A DNA stretch of 64,000 nucleotides from Schumannella luteola (GTDB taxonomy: Bacteria; Actinomycetota; Actinomycetes; Actinomycetales; Microbacteriaceae). The stretch is from assembly GCF_013408685.1 (NCBI RefSeq), contig NZ_JACBZY010000001.1, positions 3,472,001 through 3,536,000 of the forward strand, read 5' to 3'. The notes under the pieces are model-generated. The model was not told the DNA's origin and did no database searches. It worked only from the letters and a program-made list of their open reading frames with translations. Positions within the stretch are counted from its first letter, which is position 1. Every line of letters starts with the position of its first letter. The translations under genes were made by a program, and so were the position numbers. Below are positions 41,403 to 51,258 of the stretch, in pieces.

Positions 41403-43211
41403 TCAGACCAGCGAGTCGCGCCAGGCCGCGTGCAGCTGGGCGAAGCGCCCCGTGCCCGCGATCAGCTGCTCGGGGCTGCCGTCCTCGACGATGCGACCGT
41501 GCTCCATCACCAGCACCCGGTCGGCGATCGCGACCGTCGACAGACGGTGCGCGATGATCACCGCGGTGCGGTCGGCGAGCAGGGTCGTGAGGCCCTCCTG
41601 CACGAGACGCTCCGAGGGGATGTCGAGGGAGGCCGTGGCCTCGTCGAGGATCAGCACCGCCGGGTCGGCGAGGAACGCGCGCGCGAACGAGATCAGCTGG
41701 CGCTGACCCGCCGAGACGCGCCCGCCGCGCTTGTTCACATCGGTGTCGTAGCCGTCGGGCATCGACATGATGAACTCGTGCGCGCCGACCGCCTGCGCGG
41801 CCCGGCGGATCTCGTCGAAGCCCGCACCCGGCTTGCCGAGCGCGATGTTCTCGCCGACCGAGCCCGAGAACAGGTAGGCCTCCTGCGTGACCATGACGAT
41901 CGCGCGGCGCAGGTCCTGCGCATCCAGCTCCCGCAGGTCGACGCCGTCGAGCGTCACCGCGCCCTTGCTCGGGTCGTAGAAGCGCGAGATGAGCTTCGCG
42001 AGCGTCGACTTGCCCGCGCCGGTCGAGCCGACCAGCGCGATCGTCTGCCCCGAGGGGATGTCGAGCGAGAACTCCGGCAGCACCACCCGGTCGCCCTTGT
42101 AGGCGAAGGTGACGTCGTCGAAGCGCACGGCGCCGGTCGAGTGCGCGACGCGCACCGGCTTGACCGGATCCGGCACGCTCGGCTTCTCCTCGAGCACGCC
42201 CGAGATCTTCTCCAGCGCCGCCGCGGCCGACTGGTAGGAGTTGTAGAACATCGCCATCTCCTCCATCGGGTCGAAGAAGCGGCGCGTGTACAGCACCACG
42301 GCCAGCAGCGCGCCGATCTCCAGCCCGCCGCCGATCACTCGGAATCCGCCCACCAGCAGCACGACCGCGACGGTCACGTTGCCGATGAGGATCAGGCCGG
42401 GGTCGAAGATCCCGAACAGCTGGATGACCTTCGCGTTCGCGTCGCGGTACTCCTCGACGAGGCCGCCGAACTCCTTCTCGTTGCGCTTCTCCTTGCGGAA
42501 CGCCTTGACGGCGCGGATGCCGGTCATCGACTCCACGAAGTGCACGATCACGGCCGCCGAGGCGACGCGGGTGCGGCGGAACAGGTTCTGCGAGCTCTTC
42601 TGGAACCAGCGCACCAGGAACCACAGCGGCACGAGCGCCCCCGCGAGCACGAGCCCGCTGAACGGGTCGAGCGACACCAGCGCGATCGCGATGAACACCA
42701 TGTAGAGCACGCCGCGCACGAGGCCGTTGATGCCCGAGTCGAGCAGCTCGCGGATCGCATCCAGGTCGCTCGTCTGGCGGGCGATGATTCGGCCCGAGGT
42801 GTAGGTCTCGTGGAACTCGAGGCTCAGCCGCTGCGCGTGCAGGTACACCCGCTTGCGCAGGTCGAACAGGATGGCCTGGCTGATGCGCGCCGACAGCACC
42901 GTGTACTGCGCGATCAGCACCGCGCCGGCGATGCCCGCGATGAGGTAGCCGCCGACCGCGGCGCCCAGCGGGAACCAGTCGGAGGCCTTCATCAGCGCCG
43001 GCAGGCCCTGGTCGATGCCGAAGGCGATCAGCGCCGGGCCCGCGACCTGCAGGCCGGTGGAGACGACGATGACCGCCGCCGTCAGCACGAGCCGCGCGCG
43101 CAGCGGCCTCAGCAGCGAGCCGAGCAGGCGCAGCGAGCGCTGCCGGATCGCCCGGCTCTCGTCTTTCGTGTAGTCGGAGCGCTCTTCGCCCGCGACGCCC
43201 GAGATGCTCAT
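41403..43211 (-). CDS. ABC exporter half-transporter, catalytic-site subunit
   Basis: A 602-residue fusion of a six-helix membrane domain (about 35-330) and an ATPase domain (about 370-600). Walker [11 protein letters not shown]-loop VTQEAY, Walker [13 protein letters not shown] with catalytic Glu, and switch His in IIAHRLSTV are all intact. The signature is VSAGQRQ instead of LSGGQ. The partner gene has the complementary defect, so the pair should form a heterodimer with one active and one degenerate site, as in TM287/288 or BmrCD drug exporters. It starts eight bases after the partner's stop. Confidence 0.92.
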
Positions 43212-43219
43212 TCGCGTCC

Positions 43220-45121
43220 CTACTCGGCGATGACCGCATCCCGCTCGAACGATCCCTCGTCGGGGATGATGTCGAGCGTTCCGGTCTGGGTGTGCTTCTG
43301 GCGCGCTTCCTCCTCCTCGTCGAGCGACGAGATGACGAAGCGGTAGTGCTCGTTGCGGGCCAGCAGCTCGCTGTGCTCGCCCACGTCGGTGACGCGGCCG
43401 TTCTCGAGCAGCGCGACGCGGTCGGCGAGGGTGACGGTCGACGGACGGTGCGCCACGATCAGCGCGGTCGTGCTGCTGAGCACGCGGCGCAGCCCCGCCT
43501 CGACCCGCGCCTCGGTGTCGACGTCGAGCGCCGACAGCGGGTCGTCGAGCACGAGCACCTCGGGTCGGGCGGCGACAGCACGGGCGAGCGCGAGGCGCTG
43601 CCGCTGACCGCCGGAGAGGCTCAGCCCCTCCTCGCCGACCTTCGTGTCGACGCCCTCGGGCAGCTCGTCGACGAACGACGCCTGCGCCACATCGAGCGCC
43701 TCGCGCATGACGCGCTCGGCCTCGACGGCCTGGCTCGGATCGGCGAGCTCGGGCCGGCCGAGCAGCACGTTGTCGCGCACGGACGCCGAGAACAGCGTCG
43801 CGTCCTCGAAGGCCATCGCGATGTGGCGCCGCAGATCCTCGCGGGTCAGGTCGCGCACATCCACGCCGTCGAGTCGCACGGCGCCGCCGGTCACGTCGTA
43901 GAGGCGCGTCGTGAGCGCGGTGAGCGTCGTCTTGCCCGAGCCGGTCAGGCCGACCAGCGCCATCGTCTCGCCCGGGCGCACCTCGAGCTCGATGCCGTTG
44001 AGCAAGTCAGGGAACTGCTTCGGCGAGTCCTGGTAGCGGAAGTGCACGTCGTCGAAGACGAGGCGCCCCTTCGCATCCTGCACCGTCGCCGGCTCGTCGG
44101 GATCGGTGATCGCGTTCTCCGAGTCGAGCACCTCGTAGAGACGGTCGACGGCCGTGCGGGTGTCGAAGGTCATCGACAGCAGGAAGCCGATCGACTCGAT
44201 CGGGAAGCGCAGCACGGTCGCCGTCGCGAAGAACGCGAACAGCTGGCCGACCGTGAGCACGTCGTTCGCTGCGAGCAGCACGCCCCCGAGCAGGCTCAAC
44301 GCGAAGGCGACGTCGGGCACGAGCAGCAGCCAGAGCCAGATGCCGGCGATCGCCTGCGCCTTCTCGATCTCGGTTCCGCGCAGCTCCTCGGCCTGACGGG
44401 AGAACTTCTCGAGCGAGTGCCGCCCGCGCCCGAAGGCCTTGAGCACGCGGATGCCGTGCACGCTCTCCTCGACCGCGGTCGCGAGGTCGCCCTGCTGGTC
44501 CTGACTGCGGCGGGCGACGACCGAGTACTTCTGCTCGAAGACGTAGCCGTAGATCCACAGCGGGATCGAGCAGATCAGGAACAGCAGACCCAGCTGCCAG
44601 CTCCAGAAGAACAGCACCACGAAGCCGACGACGATCGTGATCACGTTGACCACGAGCAGCACGATGCCGAACGACAGCCAGCGGCGGATCAGGCCGAGGT
44701 CGCTCATCGCGCGCGACAGCAGCTGCCCGCTCGCCCAGCGGTCGTGGAAGGCGACCGGCAGGTCCTGCAGCTTCGCGTAGAAGGCGTTGCGCATGGTCGC
44801 CTCGACGTGCGTGCCCGGAGTGAGCACGAACCAGCGGCGCAGGGCGATGAACACCGCCTCGCCGGCGCCGAGCAGCAGCACGAGGATGACGGCGGGCCAG
44901 ATCTGCGCGCCGTCGCCCGACGACAGCGGACCGTCGACGAGGTTCTGCAGGACCACCGGGATCGCCAGCGAGACGAGGCCCGCGAGCAGCGCCGCGACGG
45001 CGCCGAGGATCAGCCGGCCGAGGGCCGGCTTCACGAAGGGGTAGATCTTGGCGAGCGTGGCGACGGTGCCGGCGCGATGCTCACGCGGTTGGGGACGGTC
45101 GGGGGACGTGGTGGAGCGCAT
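43220..45121 (-). CDS. ABC exporter half-transporter, degenerate-site subunit
   Basis: A 633-residue partner of the preceding exporter. The membrane domain spans about 25-330 and the ATPase domain about 355-600. Walker [10 protein letters not shown] and signature [15 protein letters not shown] are normal. Walker B reads [12 protein letters not shown], with Asp in place of the catalytic Glu, as in degenerate sites of heterodimeric exporters. A 40-residue acidic tail follows. Only a weak ribosome site precedes the ATG. A leader ORF and hairpin lie upstream. Confidence 0.92.
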
Positions 45122-45483: not shown

Positions 45484-47403
45484 TCAGTCGCGCTGCGCGG
45501 GCCCGGCCGGCAGCCGCACCGTCACGGTCGTCCCCGTCCCGGCGTCGCTCGCCAGCTCGAGCTCGCCGCCGAGGGCCTCGACCCGGTCGACCAGACCGCG
45601 GATGCCGGTGCCGGCATCCAGCGACGCTCCCCCGCGCCCGTTGTCGCGCACGGTCAGCACGAGGGACCCGGCCTCGCCATCGCCCACCACCTCGCGGGTG
45701 TCGTCGAGCTCGAGATGCAGACGCACCCAGGCTCGCCGAGCACCCGAATGCCGGGCGATGTTGGCCAGGCACTCCGAGGCGACGAAGTAGACCGTCGCCT
45801 CGACCAGCTCGGTCGGGCGCTCATCGACGAGCACATCCACCTCGGTCGGCACCGGGCAGCGCGACGCGAGCTCGGGCAGGGCCAGCGCGAGGCCGCCCTC
45901 GACCAGCACGGTCGGGTGGATGCCGCGGGCCAGCTCGCGCAGCTCCTTCAGCGCCGACGACAGCCGCCCGAGCGTCTCCTCGAGGCGCTGCGCGAGTTCA
46001 TGGGCCCCCTCGGCGCGGGCGGCCGACACGAGCGTGCGCAGCTCCATCGCGAGGGCGACGAGCTGCTGCTGCGAGCCGTCGTGCAGGTCGCGCTCGAGCC
46101 GCTTGCGCGCCTCGTCCCCCGCCTCGACGATGCGCTGACGCGACTCGCGCACCTGCGCGAGGGTGCGCTCGACCTCGCTGCGCAGCGAGCGGTTGTCGAC
46201 GCTGAGCCGGAGGGCCGCCGAGACGCCGTCGAGCAGCCGCTCGTTCTCGGCGAGGGCCCGGTCGTGGCGGATCACGGCGATCGGCGTGCCCCCGTCGCCG
46301 GAGATCGGCAGCAGGGTGCTCGTCGGCTCGGCGACATCCAGGTCGATCTCGACCGGGGCGCCGGCGTCGTCGATCCAGCCGCCCGTGCGCTCATCCCACC
46401 AGAACACCTCGACGCCGGGATCCCGCAGCACGGTCGCGAGCGACTCGCGCCAGGCCGCGCGGTCGACGCCGTCGCGGGTGATCATCATGAGGTCGGCCAC
46501 GCGGCCGCGGGTGTTGCGCAGGTGCACGCTGCCGGCGATGTAGCAGATCGGCACCGAGGCGACCGCGAACAGCGACACCACGGCCACCGATCCGTCGCCC
46601 GTGATCGCGACGACGAAGGCGCCCTTCGAGGCGCTGTGCATCGCGTAGCTGATCGCCTCGGCGACGAGCGCCGCCGTCCAGGCGAAGAGGCCGATCGGCA
46701 TCACGAAGGCGACGCTGCGGGTCGGCTGGCTGCCGCGGCTCCACTGCCAGAGCAGCCGGGTGGCGACGAAGAGCACGATCACGGCGCCGATGACGCGGTA
46801 GATCGTGTCGACGGTCGTGAAGGTGCTCTGGTCGCCCACGAGAGCGTAGGCGTTGCTCACGCAGAGGCAGTCGCGGTTCTCGGTCTTGTCGGCGATCAGC
46901 ACGACCCCGGCACGCACGATCGACACGCTCACGCCGAAGCCGACGACCGCCCAGTCCACGACGCCGACGTAGCGCCCACGCGGATACGCGAGGGCGATGA
47001 GGCCCAGCAGCAGCGCCCAGATCAGGTCGATGCTGCGCAGGATGGGCCAGACGTAGCCGAAATAGGCGACCACGGCGAAGAAGGTCTGCGGGATCCAGAA
47101 GTAGGGGAACAGCGCCATCATGACGATCGGCAGCCGACGCTCGCCCAGCTGCAGGCCGACCATCGCCGAGAACGCGAAGACGAAGGGCACGGCCGCGTGC
47201 AGAGTCACCCAGGAGACGTCGGGCCGGTCGAGCGGCGGCGTCGACTGCCAGCCGAGCACCTGCATGACCAGGTTCAGCAGCGGACCCGCGGCGATGAAGA
47301 CACCCCAGGCGATCCCGCGGCCCACGCCGAGGCGCCGCGGCGGCGCCGGACGCACATCCAGCGGTCGCGGATGGGCGGCGCGAGCGGCCGCCGGGGCGTT
47401 CAT
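45484..47403 (-). CDS. Two-component sensor histidine kinase (HisKA_3 / NarL type)
   Basis: A 639-residue membrane kinase. About seven to nine hydrophobic segments (residues 28-300) form an integral membrane sensor. A soluble linker with a GAF-like fold follows, then the dimerisation/phospho-acceptor helix EARKRLERDLHDGSQQQLVALAMEL with His in DLHDGSQQ, and the ATPase part with FVASECLANIARHSGA (N box) and DNGRGGASLDAGTGIRGLVDRV (G boxes). Its start overlaps the response regulator stop (ATGA). The signal is unknown; the adjoining exporter and peptide/ATP-grasp pair are candidate targets. Confidence 0.92.
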   Translation of the reverse strand: MNAPAAARAAHPRPLDVRPAPPRRLGVGRGIAWGVFIAAGPLLNLVMQVLGWQSTPPLDRPDVSWVTLHAAVPFVFAFSAMVGLQLGERRLPIVMMALFPYFWIPQTFFAVVAYFGYVWPILRSIDLIWALLLGLIALAYPRGRYVGVVDWAVVGFGVSVSIVRAGVVLIADKTENRDCLCVSNAYALVGDQSTFTTVDTIYRVIGAVIVLFVATRLLWQWSRGSQPTRSVAFVMPIGLFAWTAALVAEAISYAMHSASKGAFVVAITGDGSVAVVSLFAVASVPICYIAGSVHLRNTRGRVADLMMITRDGVDRAAWRESLATVLRDPGVEVFWWDERTGGWIDDAGAPVEIDLDVAEPTSTLLPISGDGGTPIAVIRHDRALAENERLLDGVSAALRLSVDNRSLRSEVERTLAQVRESRQRIVEAGDEARKRLERDLHDGSQQQLVALAMELRTLVSAARAEGAHELAQRLEETLGRLSSALKELRELARGIHPTVLVEGGLALALPELASRCPVPTEVDVLVDERPTELVEATVYFVASECLANIARHSGARRAWVRLHLELDDTREVVGDGEAGSLVLTVRDNGRGGASLDAGTGIRGLVDRVEALGGELELASDAGTGTTVTVRLPAGPAQRD

Positions 47404-48071
47404 CGCGACCCGAGGAAGGCGAGCACCGCCAGCACCCGACGGTGGTTGTCGGGCGAGTCGTCGAGGCCGAGCTTCTGCATGATGTTGCGCACGTGCGTCT
47501 CGACGGTCTTCACGCCGAGGAACAGCTGGCGCGAGATGCCCGCGTTCGAGTTGCCCTGCGCCATCGCCTCGAGCACCGAGAGCTCGCGGGCGGTCAGGGT
47601 CGACAGCGGTCCGTCGGCGCGCGGCCGGTTCATCAGCTGAGCTACGACCTCCGGGTCGACGACCGAGCCACCGCGCGACACGGTCGTGACCGCGGCGACG
47701 AGCGTGTGCGGCTCGGAGACGCGCTCCTTCAGCAGATAGCCGGTGCCGGCGCCGGCATCCAGCGCGCGCATCGCGTACTCGGGCGTCGCGTACATCGACA
47801 GCAGCAGCACGCCGATGCGCGAGCCCTGACTGCGCAGGGTCTCGAGGGCGACGATGCCCTCGTCGCGGAACTTCGGCGGCATGCGGATGTCGAGCACCGC
47901 CACGTCGATCCCGCCGGACTGCACGGCGGCGACCAGCTCCTCGCCCGATCCGACCGACGCGACGACGTCGACGCCTCCGTCGGCGAGCACTTTGCCGATG
48001 CCCTCGCGCAGCAGCATCGCGTCATCGGCGACCGCTGCGCGCAGTCGCGTTCCTGATAGTGCGTCGGTCAT
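47400..48071 (-). CDS. Two-component response regulator, NarL/LuxR type
   Basis: A 223-residue regulator. In the receiver domain the acidic pair is in AAVADDAMLLREG, the phospho-accepting Asp is in VAVLDIRMPP, and Lys is in YLLKERV. The C-terminal LuxR HTH reads LTARELSVLEAMAQGNSNAGISRQLFLGVKTVETHVRNIMQKLGL. It is the first gene of the two-gene operon, and the cognate kinase follows with a four-base overlap. Its targets are not identifiable from the sequence. Confidence 0.94.
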   Translation of the reverse strand: MTDALSGTRLRAAVADDAMLLREGIGKVLADGGVDVVASVGSGEELVAAVQSGGIDVAVLDIRMPPKFRDEGIVALETLRSQGSRIGVLLLSMYATPEYAMRALDAGAGTGYLLKERVSEPHTLVAAVTTVSRGGSVVDPEVVAQLMNRPRADGPLSTLTARELSVLEAMAQGNSNAGISRQLFLGVKTVETHVRNIMQKLGLDDSPDNHRRVLAVLAFLGSR

Positions 48072-48240
48072 AGCAACCCGACCTCCGATGGGCGGCGGGG
48101 CTCCGCCCGAGCGTCCCGATCTCCCCTCAGGACAGGTTGAGGATACCTAATCAGGGCTTCCCCCGATGAACTGGACAGACCGTTCCGCCAGATTGTGGCT
48201 CGGAGCAAGCGCTCCCAGCGACGGAACGGGGGTAGAGCTG

Positions 48241-48483
48241 GTGTCGTCCCACACCGCGAAGCTCATCGCCCCCGTCGGCGTGTCGGTCGTCAGCCCCGCG
48301 ACCGATGCCGACTCCGACACCGTGATCCGCTCGATGCGCAACCCGAAGCGCCCTGCGCTGCGCCCGAGCGGGGCGAGGAGTCGTCTCGCCCCCCGTGCGG
48401 TTCCCAGCTCGGCCCCGGCGGGCCGGGAACCGCACGGGTCCCCTCGTCCTCTCGCGGGCATCCGAGGAGAGCTCCGCCTGTGA
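48241..48483 (+). CDS. Small peptide ORF coupled to an ATP-grasp ligase (candidate graspetide precursor)
   Basis: About 80 residues from a GTG at 48241; the frame is open from an ATG at 48166 but the first 25 codons lack the strong G/C third positions seen from 48241 on, so the GTG is preferred. The peptide contains VGVSVVSPATDADSDTVIRS, a Ser/Thr plus Asp cluster of the kind cross-linked by ester bonds in graspetides. An Arg/Pro-rich tail follows. Its TGA overlaps the GTG of the ligase gene. A 14-bp hairpin lies within the 3' part. No homologous precursor family is recognised, so the role is inferred. Confidence 0.45.
   Translation: MSSHTAKLIAPVGVSVVSPATDADSDTVIRSMRNPKRPALRPSGARSRLAPRAVPSSAPAGREPHGSPRPLAGIRGELRL
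48392..48438 (+). other. Hairpin inside the 3' part of the small peptide ORF
   Basis: Perfect 14-bp arms (48392-48405 and 48425-48438), 42 bp before the ATP-grasp start. In peptide clusters a partial terminator between precursor and ligase is common; here the reading frame runs through it. Confidence 0.6.
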
Positions 48484-49448
48484 TCCTGCTCGTCGCCCCG
48501 CCCGATGACCGTCATGCCGCCGCCGTCGCCGACCGCCTCCGCGCGCGCGGCGAGGACGCCGCCCTCATCGACGTTGCCAGCCTGACCGCACAGCTCACGA
48601 TCGGCCTCGAGTTCGCCCCGGGCCTGAGCGCCTCCGGATCCGTGCAGGTGCACGGCCTCGACGGCGCCACGACCCAGACCATCGACCTCTCCCGCGTCAC
48701 CGCCGGGTGGTGGCGACGCAGCTGGATCCCGCTGCTCGGCGCCGACGACCCGCGTCTCACCGGCGCCCCCGTCGACTTCGGCGAGGCGCTCGTGTCGACC
48801 GCCGAGGCGCTCGACATCGCCTGGGCGAACGAGCCCGTCGCCGTCGACCTGGCTCAGCGCCGCACCCGGCTGTGGGCCTCCGCACGCCGTGCCGGTCTGA
48901 TCATGCCGCACACGATCGTGACCCACGATCCGGGCGCCGCGCACCGCTTCGCGAAGCAGCACCTGCGCACCGGCGTCGTCTGCCGCCCGCTCGTGAAGTC
49001 GCACGCCGAGTGGCCCGCGCAGGATCGCATCATGGGCGTCTCGGCGATCGACGAGCTCGTCGAGCAGAACGGCCCCGACCTCGTGCTGCGCGCCTTCGTC
49101 CCGGGCTCCGACCTGCGCGCCTTCGTCGCCGGTGATCGCGTGCTGGCCGCCGATCTCGGCCCGACCGCGACGAACGACCCCGGCGCCGGTCTGCTGCCGG
49201 TCGTGCCGAGCGGCGCCCGGGCCGTCGAGCTGCCGGTCGAGGTGCGCGACGGTCTCGCCGCGCTCGTCGCCGACCTCGGCCTCGGGCACGCCGCCGTCGA
49301 CCTGCGGCGCACGCGCGCCGGCGAGCACCTCTTCCTCGACCTCGACCCGCTCGCCGGCTGGCTCGACGTCGAGGCCGTGACGGGGCTGCCGCTCACCGAG
49401 CAGCTCGTCGACGAGCTGCTCGCGCGCTCCGCCGCGCGCGTCGCCTGA
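48480..49448 (+). CDS. ATP-grasp ligase of the RimK/MvdC-MvdD type
   Basis: A 322-residue protein with a GTG start after GAGGAGAG. An N-terminal pre-ATP-grasp domain (MILLVAPPDDRHAAAVADRL, then SRVTAGWWRRSW, the A-x-WWRR element of peptide-modifying ATP-grasps) is followed by the ATP-binding region RTRLWASARRAGLIMPHTIVTHDP, VVCRPLVKS and LVLRAFVPGSDLRAFVAGDRVLAAD. The C-terminus FLDLDPLAGWLDVEAVTGLPL matches the metal site, but Glu-x-Asn is Asp-x-Asp. It is translationally coupled to the small peptide ORF, a likely substrate. A glutathione- or RimK-like ligase on another target is the alternative. Confidence 0.8.
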   Translation: MILLVAPPDDRHAAAVADRLRARGEDAALIDVASLTAQLTIGLEFAPGLSASGSVQVHGLDGATTQTIDLSRVTAGWWRRSWIPLLGADDPRLTGAPVDFGEALVSTAEALDIAWANEPVAVDLAQRRTRLWASARRAGLIMPHTIVTHDPGAAHRFAKQHLRTGVVCRPLVKSHAEWPAQDRIMGVSAIDELVEQNGPDLVLRAFVPGSDLRAFVAGDRVLAADLGPTATNDPGAGLLPVVPSGARAVELPVEVRDGLAALVADLGLGHAAVDLRRTRAGEHLFLDLDPLAGWLDVEAVTGLPLTEQLVDELLARSAARVA

Positions 49449-49528
49449 CGCCGCGCGTCCCGCGACGCCGCGCATCCCACCCCACTACGCCACGCATCGC
49501 GCGACGACCGAGACGGCCGACGCCCCGG

Positions 49529-49608
49529 ACGACCGACGCCGGAGACGAACGACGCCCCGGACGAACGACGCCGGAGACGACCGACGCCGGGGACGAACGA
49601 CGCCGGGG
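49529..49608. repeat. Five 16-bp tandem repeats
   Basis: Units start at 49529, 49545, 49561, 49577 and 49593, consensus ACGA(A/C)CGACGCCGGAG, each exactly 16 bp. The last unit is also the left arm of the hairpin at 49596-49639. They lie in the 220-bp gap between the ATP-grasp and purH genes. Confidence 0.9.
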
Positions 49609-49639
49609 CGGATGCGCGCGCATCCACCCCGGCGTCGTT
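49596..49639. terminator. Bidirectional terminator between ATP-grasp gene and purH
   Basis: Left arm AACGACGCCGGGG (49596-49608) pairs with CCCCGGCGTCGTT (49627-49639) around an inner perfect GGATGCGC/GCGCATCC stem, with one mismatch between. The genes converge on it. Confidence 0.75.
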
Positions 49640-49668
49640 CCGAGTCGCGGGCCGAGAGCCCGGCCGGC

Positions 49669-51258
49669 TCAGTGGAAGAAGTGGCGCTCCCCGGTGAAGT
49701 ACATCGTCACGCCCGCCGCGGCGGCCGCGTCGATCGTCTCCTGATCGCGCACCGACCCACCCGGCTGCACGATCGCGCGGATGCCCGCCTCGAGCAGCAC
49801 GGCCGGGCCGTCGTTGAAGGGGAAGAAGGCGTCGGATGCGGCGACGCTGCCCGCGGCGCGCTCACCGGCGCGGTCGACGGCCAGCTTGCACGAGTCCACG
49901 CGGTTGACCTGGCCCATGCCGATGCCGACCGAGGCCCCGTTCGACGCCAGCAGGATCGCGTTCGACTTCACCGCGCGGCAAGCGGTCCAGGCGAAGGCGA
50001 GATCGGCGAGGGTCTGCTCATCGGCCGGCTCGCCCGCGGCGAGGGTCCAGGTCGACGGGTCGGCGAAGTGCGCGTCGACGTCCTGCACGAGCACGCCGCC
50101 CGAGATGTCCTTGAACTCGCGCGTCGGGCGCTGGAAGCCCTCGGGCAGGGTCAGCAGTCGGATGTTCTTCTTCGTCGACAGCACCGCGAGGGCGTCGTCG
50201 TCGAAGCCCGGGGCGACGACGACCTCGGTGAAGATGTCCTTGATCGACTCGGCCGCGGCCAGGTCGATGCGCCGGTTCGCGGCGATCACGCCGCCGAAGG
50301 CCGACACCGGGTCGCACTCGTGCGCCTTGCGGTGCGCGGCGGCGATCGTCGCGCCGACCGCGATACCGCAGGGGTTCGCGTGCTTGATGATCGCGACCGC
50401 CGGCTCGGCGAGGTCGTAGGCGGCGCGCACCGCCGCATCCGCGTCGACGTAGTTGTTGTACGACATCTCCTTGCCGTGCAGCTGCGCCGCCTGGGCGATG
50501 CCCCGCTCGGCCGGCACGGTGTAGAGCGCGGCGCCCTGGTGCGCGTTCTCGCCGTAGCGCAGCTGGCCCTGCAGCTCGGCGCTGTAGCTGAACTCGAGCG
50601 GGAAGCCGTCGACACGGCCGATCGCCTGGGTGTCCTCGACCTCGAACCAGCTCGCGACGGCGGCGTCGTAGGCGGCCGTGTGCTGGAAGGCCTCGCGCGC
50701 GAGGCGGCGACGCTGCGCCAGGTCGGTGCCGCCGGCGTGCACCGCGGCGATGACGTCGGCGTAGCGCTCGGGCGAGACCACGATCGCGACGTTGGCGTGG
50801 TTCTTCGCCGAGGCGCGCACCATCGCGGGGCCGCCGATGTCGATCTGCTCGACGACGTCGTTCGCGGCCGCGCCCGAGCGCACCGTCTCGACGAAGGGGT
50901 ACAGGTTGACGACGACGAGCTCGAAGGGGCGGATGCCGAGCTCGTCGAGCTGACGCTCGTGCGACTCGAGGCGCAGGTCGGCCAGCAGACCGCCGTGCAC
51001 GCTCGGGTGCAGGGTCTTGACGCGGCCGTCGAGCGACTCGGGGAAGCCGGTGACGCTCGAGACCTCGGTGACCGGGTGTCCGGCATCCGCGATGGTCTTG
51101 GCGGTCGAGCCGGTCGACACGATCTCGATGCCGGCGGCGGCGAGCTCGCCGGCCAGGTCGAGCAGTCCGGTCTTGTCGCTGACCGAGATCAGCGCTCGGC
51201 GGATCGGGACGATGTCCCTGCTGCGGTAATCGGCGGGGTCGTGGCTGGGACCGCTCAC
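49669..51258 (-). CDS. purH: Bifunctional AICAR formyltransferase / IMP cyclohydrolase
   Basis: A 529-residue enzyme for the last two steps of IMP synthesis. The GTG start overlaps the purN stop. The N-terminal cyclohydrolase domain has [30 protein letters not shown] and [12 protein letters not shown]. The C-terminal transformylase domain has [14 protein letters not shown], the Lys-His pair in [30 protein letters not shown] and DAFFPFNDG. Length and order are normal. Confidence 0.97.

Follow-up and report, generated by a model that had tools for sequence, protein, structure and literature searches.

A lone ATP-grasp gene of the graspetide-ligase kind in Schumannella luteola, preceded by a probable leader frame

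The window, by which we mean the whole 64,000-nucleotide stretch of Schumannella luteola DNA analysed here, holds an ATP-grasp gene of the graspetide-ligase kind (48480-49448, forward strand, 322 aa), identified by family match, predicted fold and residue comparison. A small upstream frame of 80 codons (48241-48483, forward strand; GTG start at 48241, TGA stop at 48483) runs up to it, open in all five genus members and free of detectable amino-acid constraint. On balance we favour reading the locus as a lone ligase-type gene with a leader frame, not as a conserved pair of precursor and ligase, the protease partner and some of the catalytic residues apparently having been lost. The altered residues, the absence of the protease, the lack of measurable constraint on the small peptide and the conservation of hairpin arms within the small frame were each observed directly.

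The window protein matched TIGR04187 (E=2.4e-27), MvdC (4.3e-19) and PDB entry 9bou (3.7e-15), and its predicted fold agreed with the peptide-modifying ATP-grasp branch (MvdC/MvdD/PruB). The elements AGWWRRSW and FLDLDPLAGW, which the sequence-only reading had taken as marks of such enzymes, were present, and its assignment of the protein to this branch is supported by the family and structure matches together with the predicted fold. TIGR04187 was the best NCBIfam match, at full length, in all five genus members, with scores below the curated cut-offs (96 against 350 bits for TIGR04187, 68.8 against 425 for TIGR04185 and 48.6 against 475 for TIGR04184). R128 replaced the first ATP lysine and R169 the second, and the metal site read D287-x-D289 (D-L-D) where canonical relatives have E-x-N, as had been noticed earlier, with D274 retained. 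Graspetide ligases share lysines for ATP and a metal site of the form D...E/D-x-N, residues whose roles in those enzymes we take as given; the window protein does not have the complete set. A D-x-D motif is still able to hold metal, and the ligase activity of the window protein may be altered or lost. Within the D-x-D branch, ligase dN/dS was 0.26-0.59, so the gene is kept by selection and does something. It was found in all five genus genomes, with the same response regulator alongside every time, and is rare in the family, where E 1e-15 was reached in 12 of 398 genomes, among them the five genus members. Over the ligase, Schumannella soli (L003) was 87% identical to the window in the best segment and 88% in the alignment, with 64 of 101 changes at the third codon position.

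Homologues were searched for in overlapping sets of genomes from the family (398), class (394), order (396), the genus of G105 (60) and the family of G691 (394), each species being represented by one genome and large groups by samples. The comparison took in the eight outside loci that the first four of these searches matched at E 1e-48 or better, together with three more from the G691-family search, a set that leaves out L063 (E 1.2e-25) and other weaker homologues. Eight of these 11 close outside loci carry E-x-N (L016, L060, L042, L043, L064, L065, L067 and L068); the other three (L017, L061, L062) carry D-x-D and, with the five genus members, make eight D-x-D loci. Among the closest relatives, those whose catalytic site is intact immediately follow an astacin-type zinc protease gene (Pfam Astacin 1.4e-49 for L035, which is the L016 locus), whose end lay between a 4-nt overlap with the ligase and 4 nt before it in all eight E-x-N loci. 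In the C-terminal tail of this protease, the 70 residues that precede a PFVL, PFLL or TFVT motif include 5-8 Lys and 6-14 Asp/Glu, these charged residues recurring every few positions. We infer that the tail is the likely substrate of the E-x-N ligases, and it may have been the ancestral substrate. No astacin-type gene stood ahead of the ligase in any of the eight D-x-D loci, and a PF01400 search found no match in these eight genomes, having found one in all four E-x-N genomes searched alike. An astacin acting as substrate in trans was therefore rejected for the eight D-x-D genomes. A tail-bearing protease of the M43 type was also considered for that role and had no relative among them, though some other substrate may exist. 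In L018 and L023 the ATP-grasp gene, again of the graspetide type, is preceded by a protease of this M43 type (L040, 5934-7637, Pfam 4e-17; L038, 5573-8443) with a long KDRPKD-like repeat tail and a PFVIG motif.

The first ATP lysine was K in all seven E-x-N rows aligned (and by eye in L068) and in none of the eight D-x-D rows, and the second was missing in four of the eight D-x-D members. As L016, with astacin, and L017, without it, adjoin the same HAD-type gene within one genus, loss of the protease in place is likely. In a tree computed without L050 and L051, a single branch separated the D-x-D group from the rest, as it did in 96% of the 200 bootstrap trees, although the support of that branch was only 73/96 and the tree program gave a long-branch warning. 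The contrast between E-x-N and D-x-D loci involves few loci and probably reflects a single loss event.

On the reverse strand beside the locus lie a divergent LuxR-type response regulator (47400-48071), a histidine kinase (45484-47403) and two exporter-type ABC transporters (43220-45121, which is not locus-specific, and 41403-43211). A two-component system and a drug-type exporter had been reported next to the ATP-grasp gene, and they are there. Both pairs also stood near each other in two genomes without the ATP-grasp gene (G029 and G032), so their nearness to it says little, and they were rejected as parts of the locus. The convergent neighbour in four of the five genus loci is purH (49669-51258, reverse strand in the window), a LytR-CpsA-Psr gene taking its position in L006. 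An imperfect palindrome, TCAGGGCTTCCCCCGA (48151-48166), lies between the response regulator and the small frame, with a copy 70-77 nt before the small frame in all five genus loci, and is a possible binding site of the neighbouring regulator. No promoter or terminator was found by consensus, the promoter scan covering sigma-70 only. Taken in 60-nt windows, identity to S. soli over positions 48101-48520 was 93-100%, for the most part at least 97% and above the coding neighbours. This identity fell sharply past 48520, and the tract, possibly a recombined one, was not specially conserved at the distance of L004. Between the converging ATP-grasp and purH genes, GACGACGCCGG-like units are repeated in tandem (49510-49640), a region much diverged in S. 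soli, and a 14-bp inverted repeat lies at 49595-49640.

The small frame contains VVSPATDADSDT, and its stop overlaps the GTG start of the ATP-grasp gene (GTGA), both as first described. The overlap had been read as translational coupling; as a fact it stands, but it gives no independent evidence of coupling, because it is made by the ligase's own start, an NTG followed by ATC (Met-Ile). At a GC content as high as that of the window (71.7%), long open frames are frequent. Every genus member has an open frame that ends where the ligase begins (80, 80, 82, 80 and 61 codons), and no genus ligase lacked it. The frame was also intact against L004, where the sole indel was of 6 nt, with no sign of frame-shifting substitutions. 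GC by codon position was coding-like over codons 1-40 (0.62/0.55/0.95) and not coding-like in the second half (0.80/0.78/0.73). A ribosome site seen by eye in seven of the eight D-x-D loci (not in L005), an end at the downstream start and a peptide free to change suit a leader frame, and such a frame was present in all eight. We consider that the small frame is probably translated.

Whether its peptide matters bears on the proposal made from the sequence alone, that the locus makes a graspetide, the small frame being a precursor that evolves fast and in which the ATP-grasp enzyme cross-links the side chains of Ser/Thr/Lys and Asp/Glu. The constant position of the frame beside the ligase, its coding-like first half and its residues (14 S/T and 5 D/E of 80) agree with this. 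Against S. soli the frame showed six changes, distributed 1/5/0 over codon positions 1/2/3, and against L004 there were 30/35/21 changes, of 80 sites each. Its dN/dS was 1.57 (codons 2-50), a value above 1 that could mean diversification and that lay beside a permutation median of 1.48 (666 valid permutations); the response regulator gave 0.08 and the ligase 0.54. These codon tests covered the three alignable species (the window, S. soli and L004). A BLOSUM permutation put amino-acid similarity in the small frame at the random level (codons 1-50, P 0.58; codons 1-76, P 0.16; against S. soli, P 0.89), and the same permutation detected five ligase segments at P 0.005 or less each. One antisense frame in the region scored better than neutral (P 0.000 and 0.014); an antisense gene was rejected, the best-scoring frame having 2, 1 and 1 stops in the window, S. 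soli and L004.

The TDADSDT region had been expected to be the most conserved and proved not to be: the core reads ATDADSDT in the window and S. soli and VGVETDT in L004, and L005 and L006 had nothing comparable. Clearly alike peptides were limited to the window, S. soli and L004 among the five genus members, which had no leader and core motif common to their orthologous loci. The peptides of L004 and L005 were weakly alike, a point in favour of a precursor (P 0.0006 uncorrected, 50,000 shuffles, one of 36 frame comparisons), but the L005 peptide has no Lys and only 5 Ser/Thr in 80 residues, and L005 and L006 share neither core nor leader with the others despite orthologous ligases. Similarity of the small peptide to true precursors of the family did not rise above shuffles (P 0.27-1.0). 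It matched no precursor family in NCBIfam or Pfam, a null that is uninformative because two likely true precursors (those of L021 and L022) were missed too. The other three D-x-D relatives have frames of merely 16, 14 and 14 codons at this position, encoding unrelated peptides, and the ATP and metal residues of the enzyme are altered. We found no sign that the peptide is guarded as a precursor common to the orthologous ligases. With codon tests showing no protein constraint, unrelated short frames in three relatives and the first ATP lysine and E-x-N gone, the claim that the small frame encodes the substrate was not supported, and the graspetide reading as a whole is unlikely.

A 14-bp hairpin had been placed in the 3' part of the small frame, and this was borne out: a perfect inverted repeat pairs 48392-48405 with 48425-48438 (48392-48438, forward strand), around an inner 5-bp stem and loop, its arms conserved in S. 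soli and L004. Just 5' of it lies an 8-bp hairpin (48370-48392, forward strand), perfect in the window and S. soli and broken in L004. A second explanation makes of frame and hairpin an attenuator that senses translation and controls expression of the ATP-grasp gene. The 28 arm sites carried 2 differences between the window and L004, compensating each other (C-G to G-C), against 82 in the other 200 aligned sites (26/28 against 118/200 identical; P 8e-5), the folding energy of 48241-48500 had a z of -3.56, and L005 has an 11-bp hairpin of different sequence within its own frame, all of which would suit such a device. Yet no U-run or terminator-like site was found, and Rfam gave nothing above threshold, its one match, at 20.4 bits (E 0.66) where the gathering score is 59, being unconvincing. 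Pair statistics (161/500 shuffles), from three alignable sequences, were not decisive, at the corresponding place L006 had no perfect arm reaching 9 bp, and the frames of 14-16 codons are too short to hold the hairpin. This attenuator must be counted distinctly improbable. A dispersed repeat was rejected as the origin of the hairpin: a pattern built from its arms (11 nt each, spaced by 10-30 nt) occurred at a single place in the window's genome, and among the genomes searched G000, G003 and G004 had one occurrence each, whereas G001 and G002 had none.

That the upstream stretch is an N-terminal part of the ATP-grasp protein, starting at or near 48195, is very improbable indeed: the ligase frame is open from there (417 aa) and was better than neutral over the small-frame region (P 0.003 against S. 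soli, 0.026 against L004; dN/dS 0.53), but its codon composition there argues against coding (third-position GC 0.55 over the first 40 codons against 0.94 in the ligase), residue 1 of the modelled protein already aligns with residues 1-7 of the solved ligases, and the eight E-x-N relatives start at Met-(Ile/Val)-Leu.

Returning to the lone ligase-type gene with a leader frame, the following course would account for the locus. In the ancestral state the ATP-grasp ligase would have stood behind an astacin-type protease, the protease tail being its likely substrate. In the D-x-D branch the protease would then have gone, the first ATP lysine been replaced and E-x-N become D-x-D, the gene staying under purifying selection. 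Ribosomes would probably load at the leader frame (14-82 codons in the branch) and reach the ligase start at the leader stop, coupling the two translationally, with the leader peptide presumably free to vary. The conserved hairpin between the leader start and the ligase start may tune the hand-over of ribosomes. More tentatively, a graspetide-type branch may have lost its substrate, the Lys/Asp-rich tail of an adjacent astacin-type protease, at the same time as the canonical residues for ATP and metal, and yet been maintained by selection, as a repurposed enzyme of altered chemistry or as a descendant that no longer catalyses but binds or regulates.

These loci carry a warning that not every small frame ahead of a peptide ATP-grasp gene is a RiPP precursor. 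They offer for testing a natural series of loci in which catalytic residues disappear along with the partner, a single site on the chromosome of one genus occurring both with the protease and without it. They also raise the testable idea that for certain proteases a dedicated ATP-grasp ligase may stitch the protease's own tail. In the parts of the open PMC literature consulted, subscription papers lying outside that scope, no description of the window locus or of an astacin/ATP-grasp pair was found. One paper mentions metallopeptidases in some graspetide loci and describes a Phhx(1,2)h leader motif (PMC8939145), of which the PFVL-type motif of the astacin-type tail is reminiscent, by analogy. 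Another mentions groups that have proteases as neighbours and precursors made of long repeats (PMC13097080), and the protease link as such is therefore already known.

Among known systems, the solved graspetide ligases PruB (9bou), AMdnB (7m4s), MdnC (5ig9), MdnB (5ig8), PsnB (7drm) and the Chryseobacterium ligase (7mgv) differ from the window protein, in which both ATP lysines are Arg and E-x-N has become D-x-D, and which has no demonstrable precursor. The SAV_5884 family (TIGR04187, ATP-grasp ribosomal peptide maturase) is its best match, yet one far below the cut-off. In three further loci (L021, L022 and L024), which are likely ordinary graspetide loci, a D-x-N ATP-grasp gene follows two successive small frames that contain stretches resembling ETSDSDE or ETSDHGF. 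They resemble the window in their small upstream frames, and ETSDSDE recalls TDADSDT by eye, but their precursors are alike between species (0/1000 shuffles) and dissimilar to the window peptide. The closest outside homologues are the astacin-coupled E-x-N loci, which share with the window an upstream gene that overlaps the ligase or nearly does, and differ from it in that this gene encodes a protease with a Lys/Asp-rich tail and in that their catalytic residues are intact.
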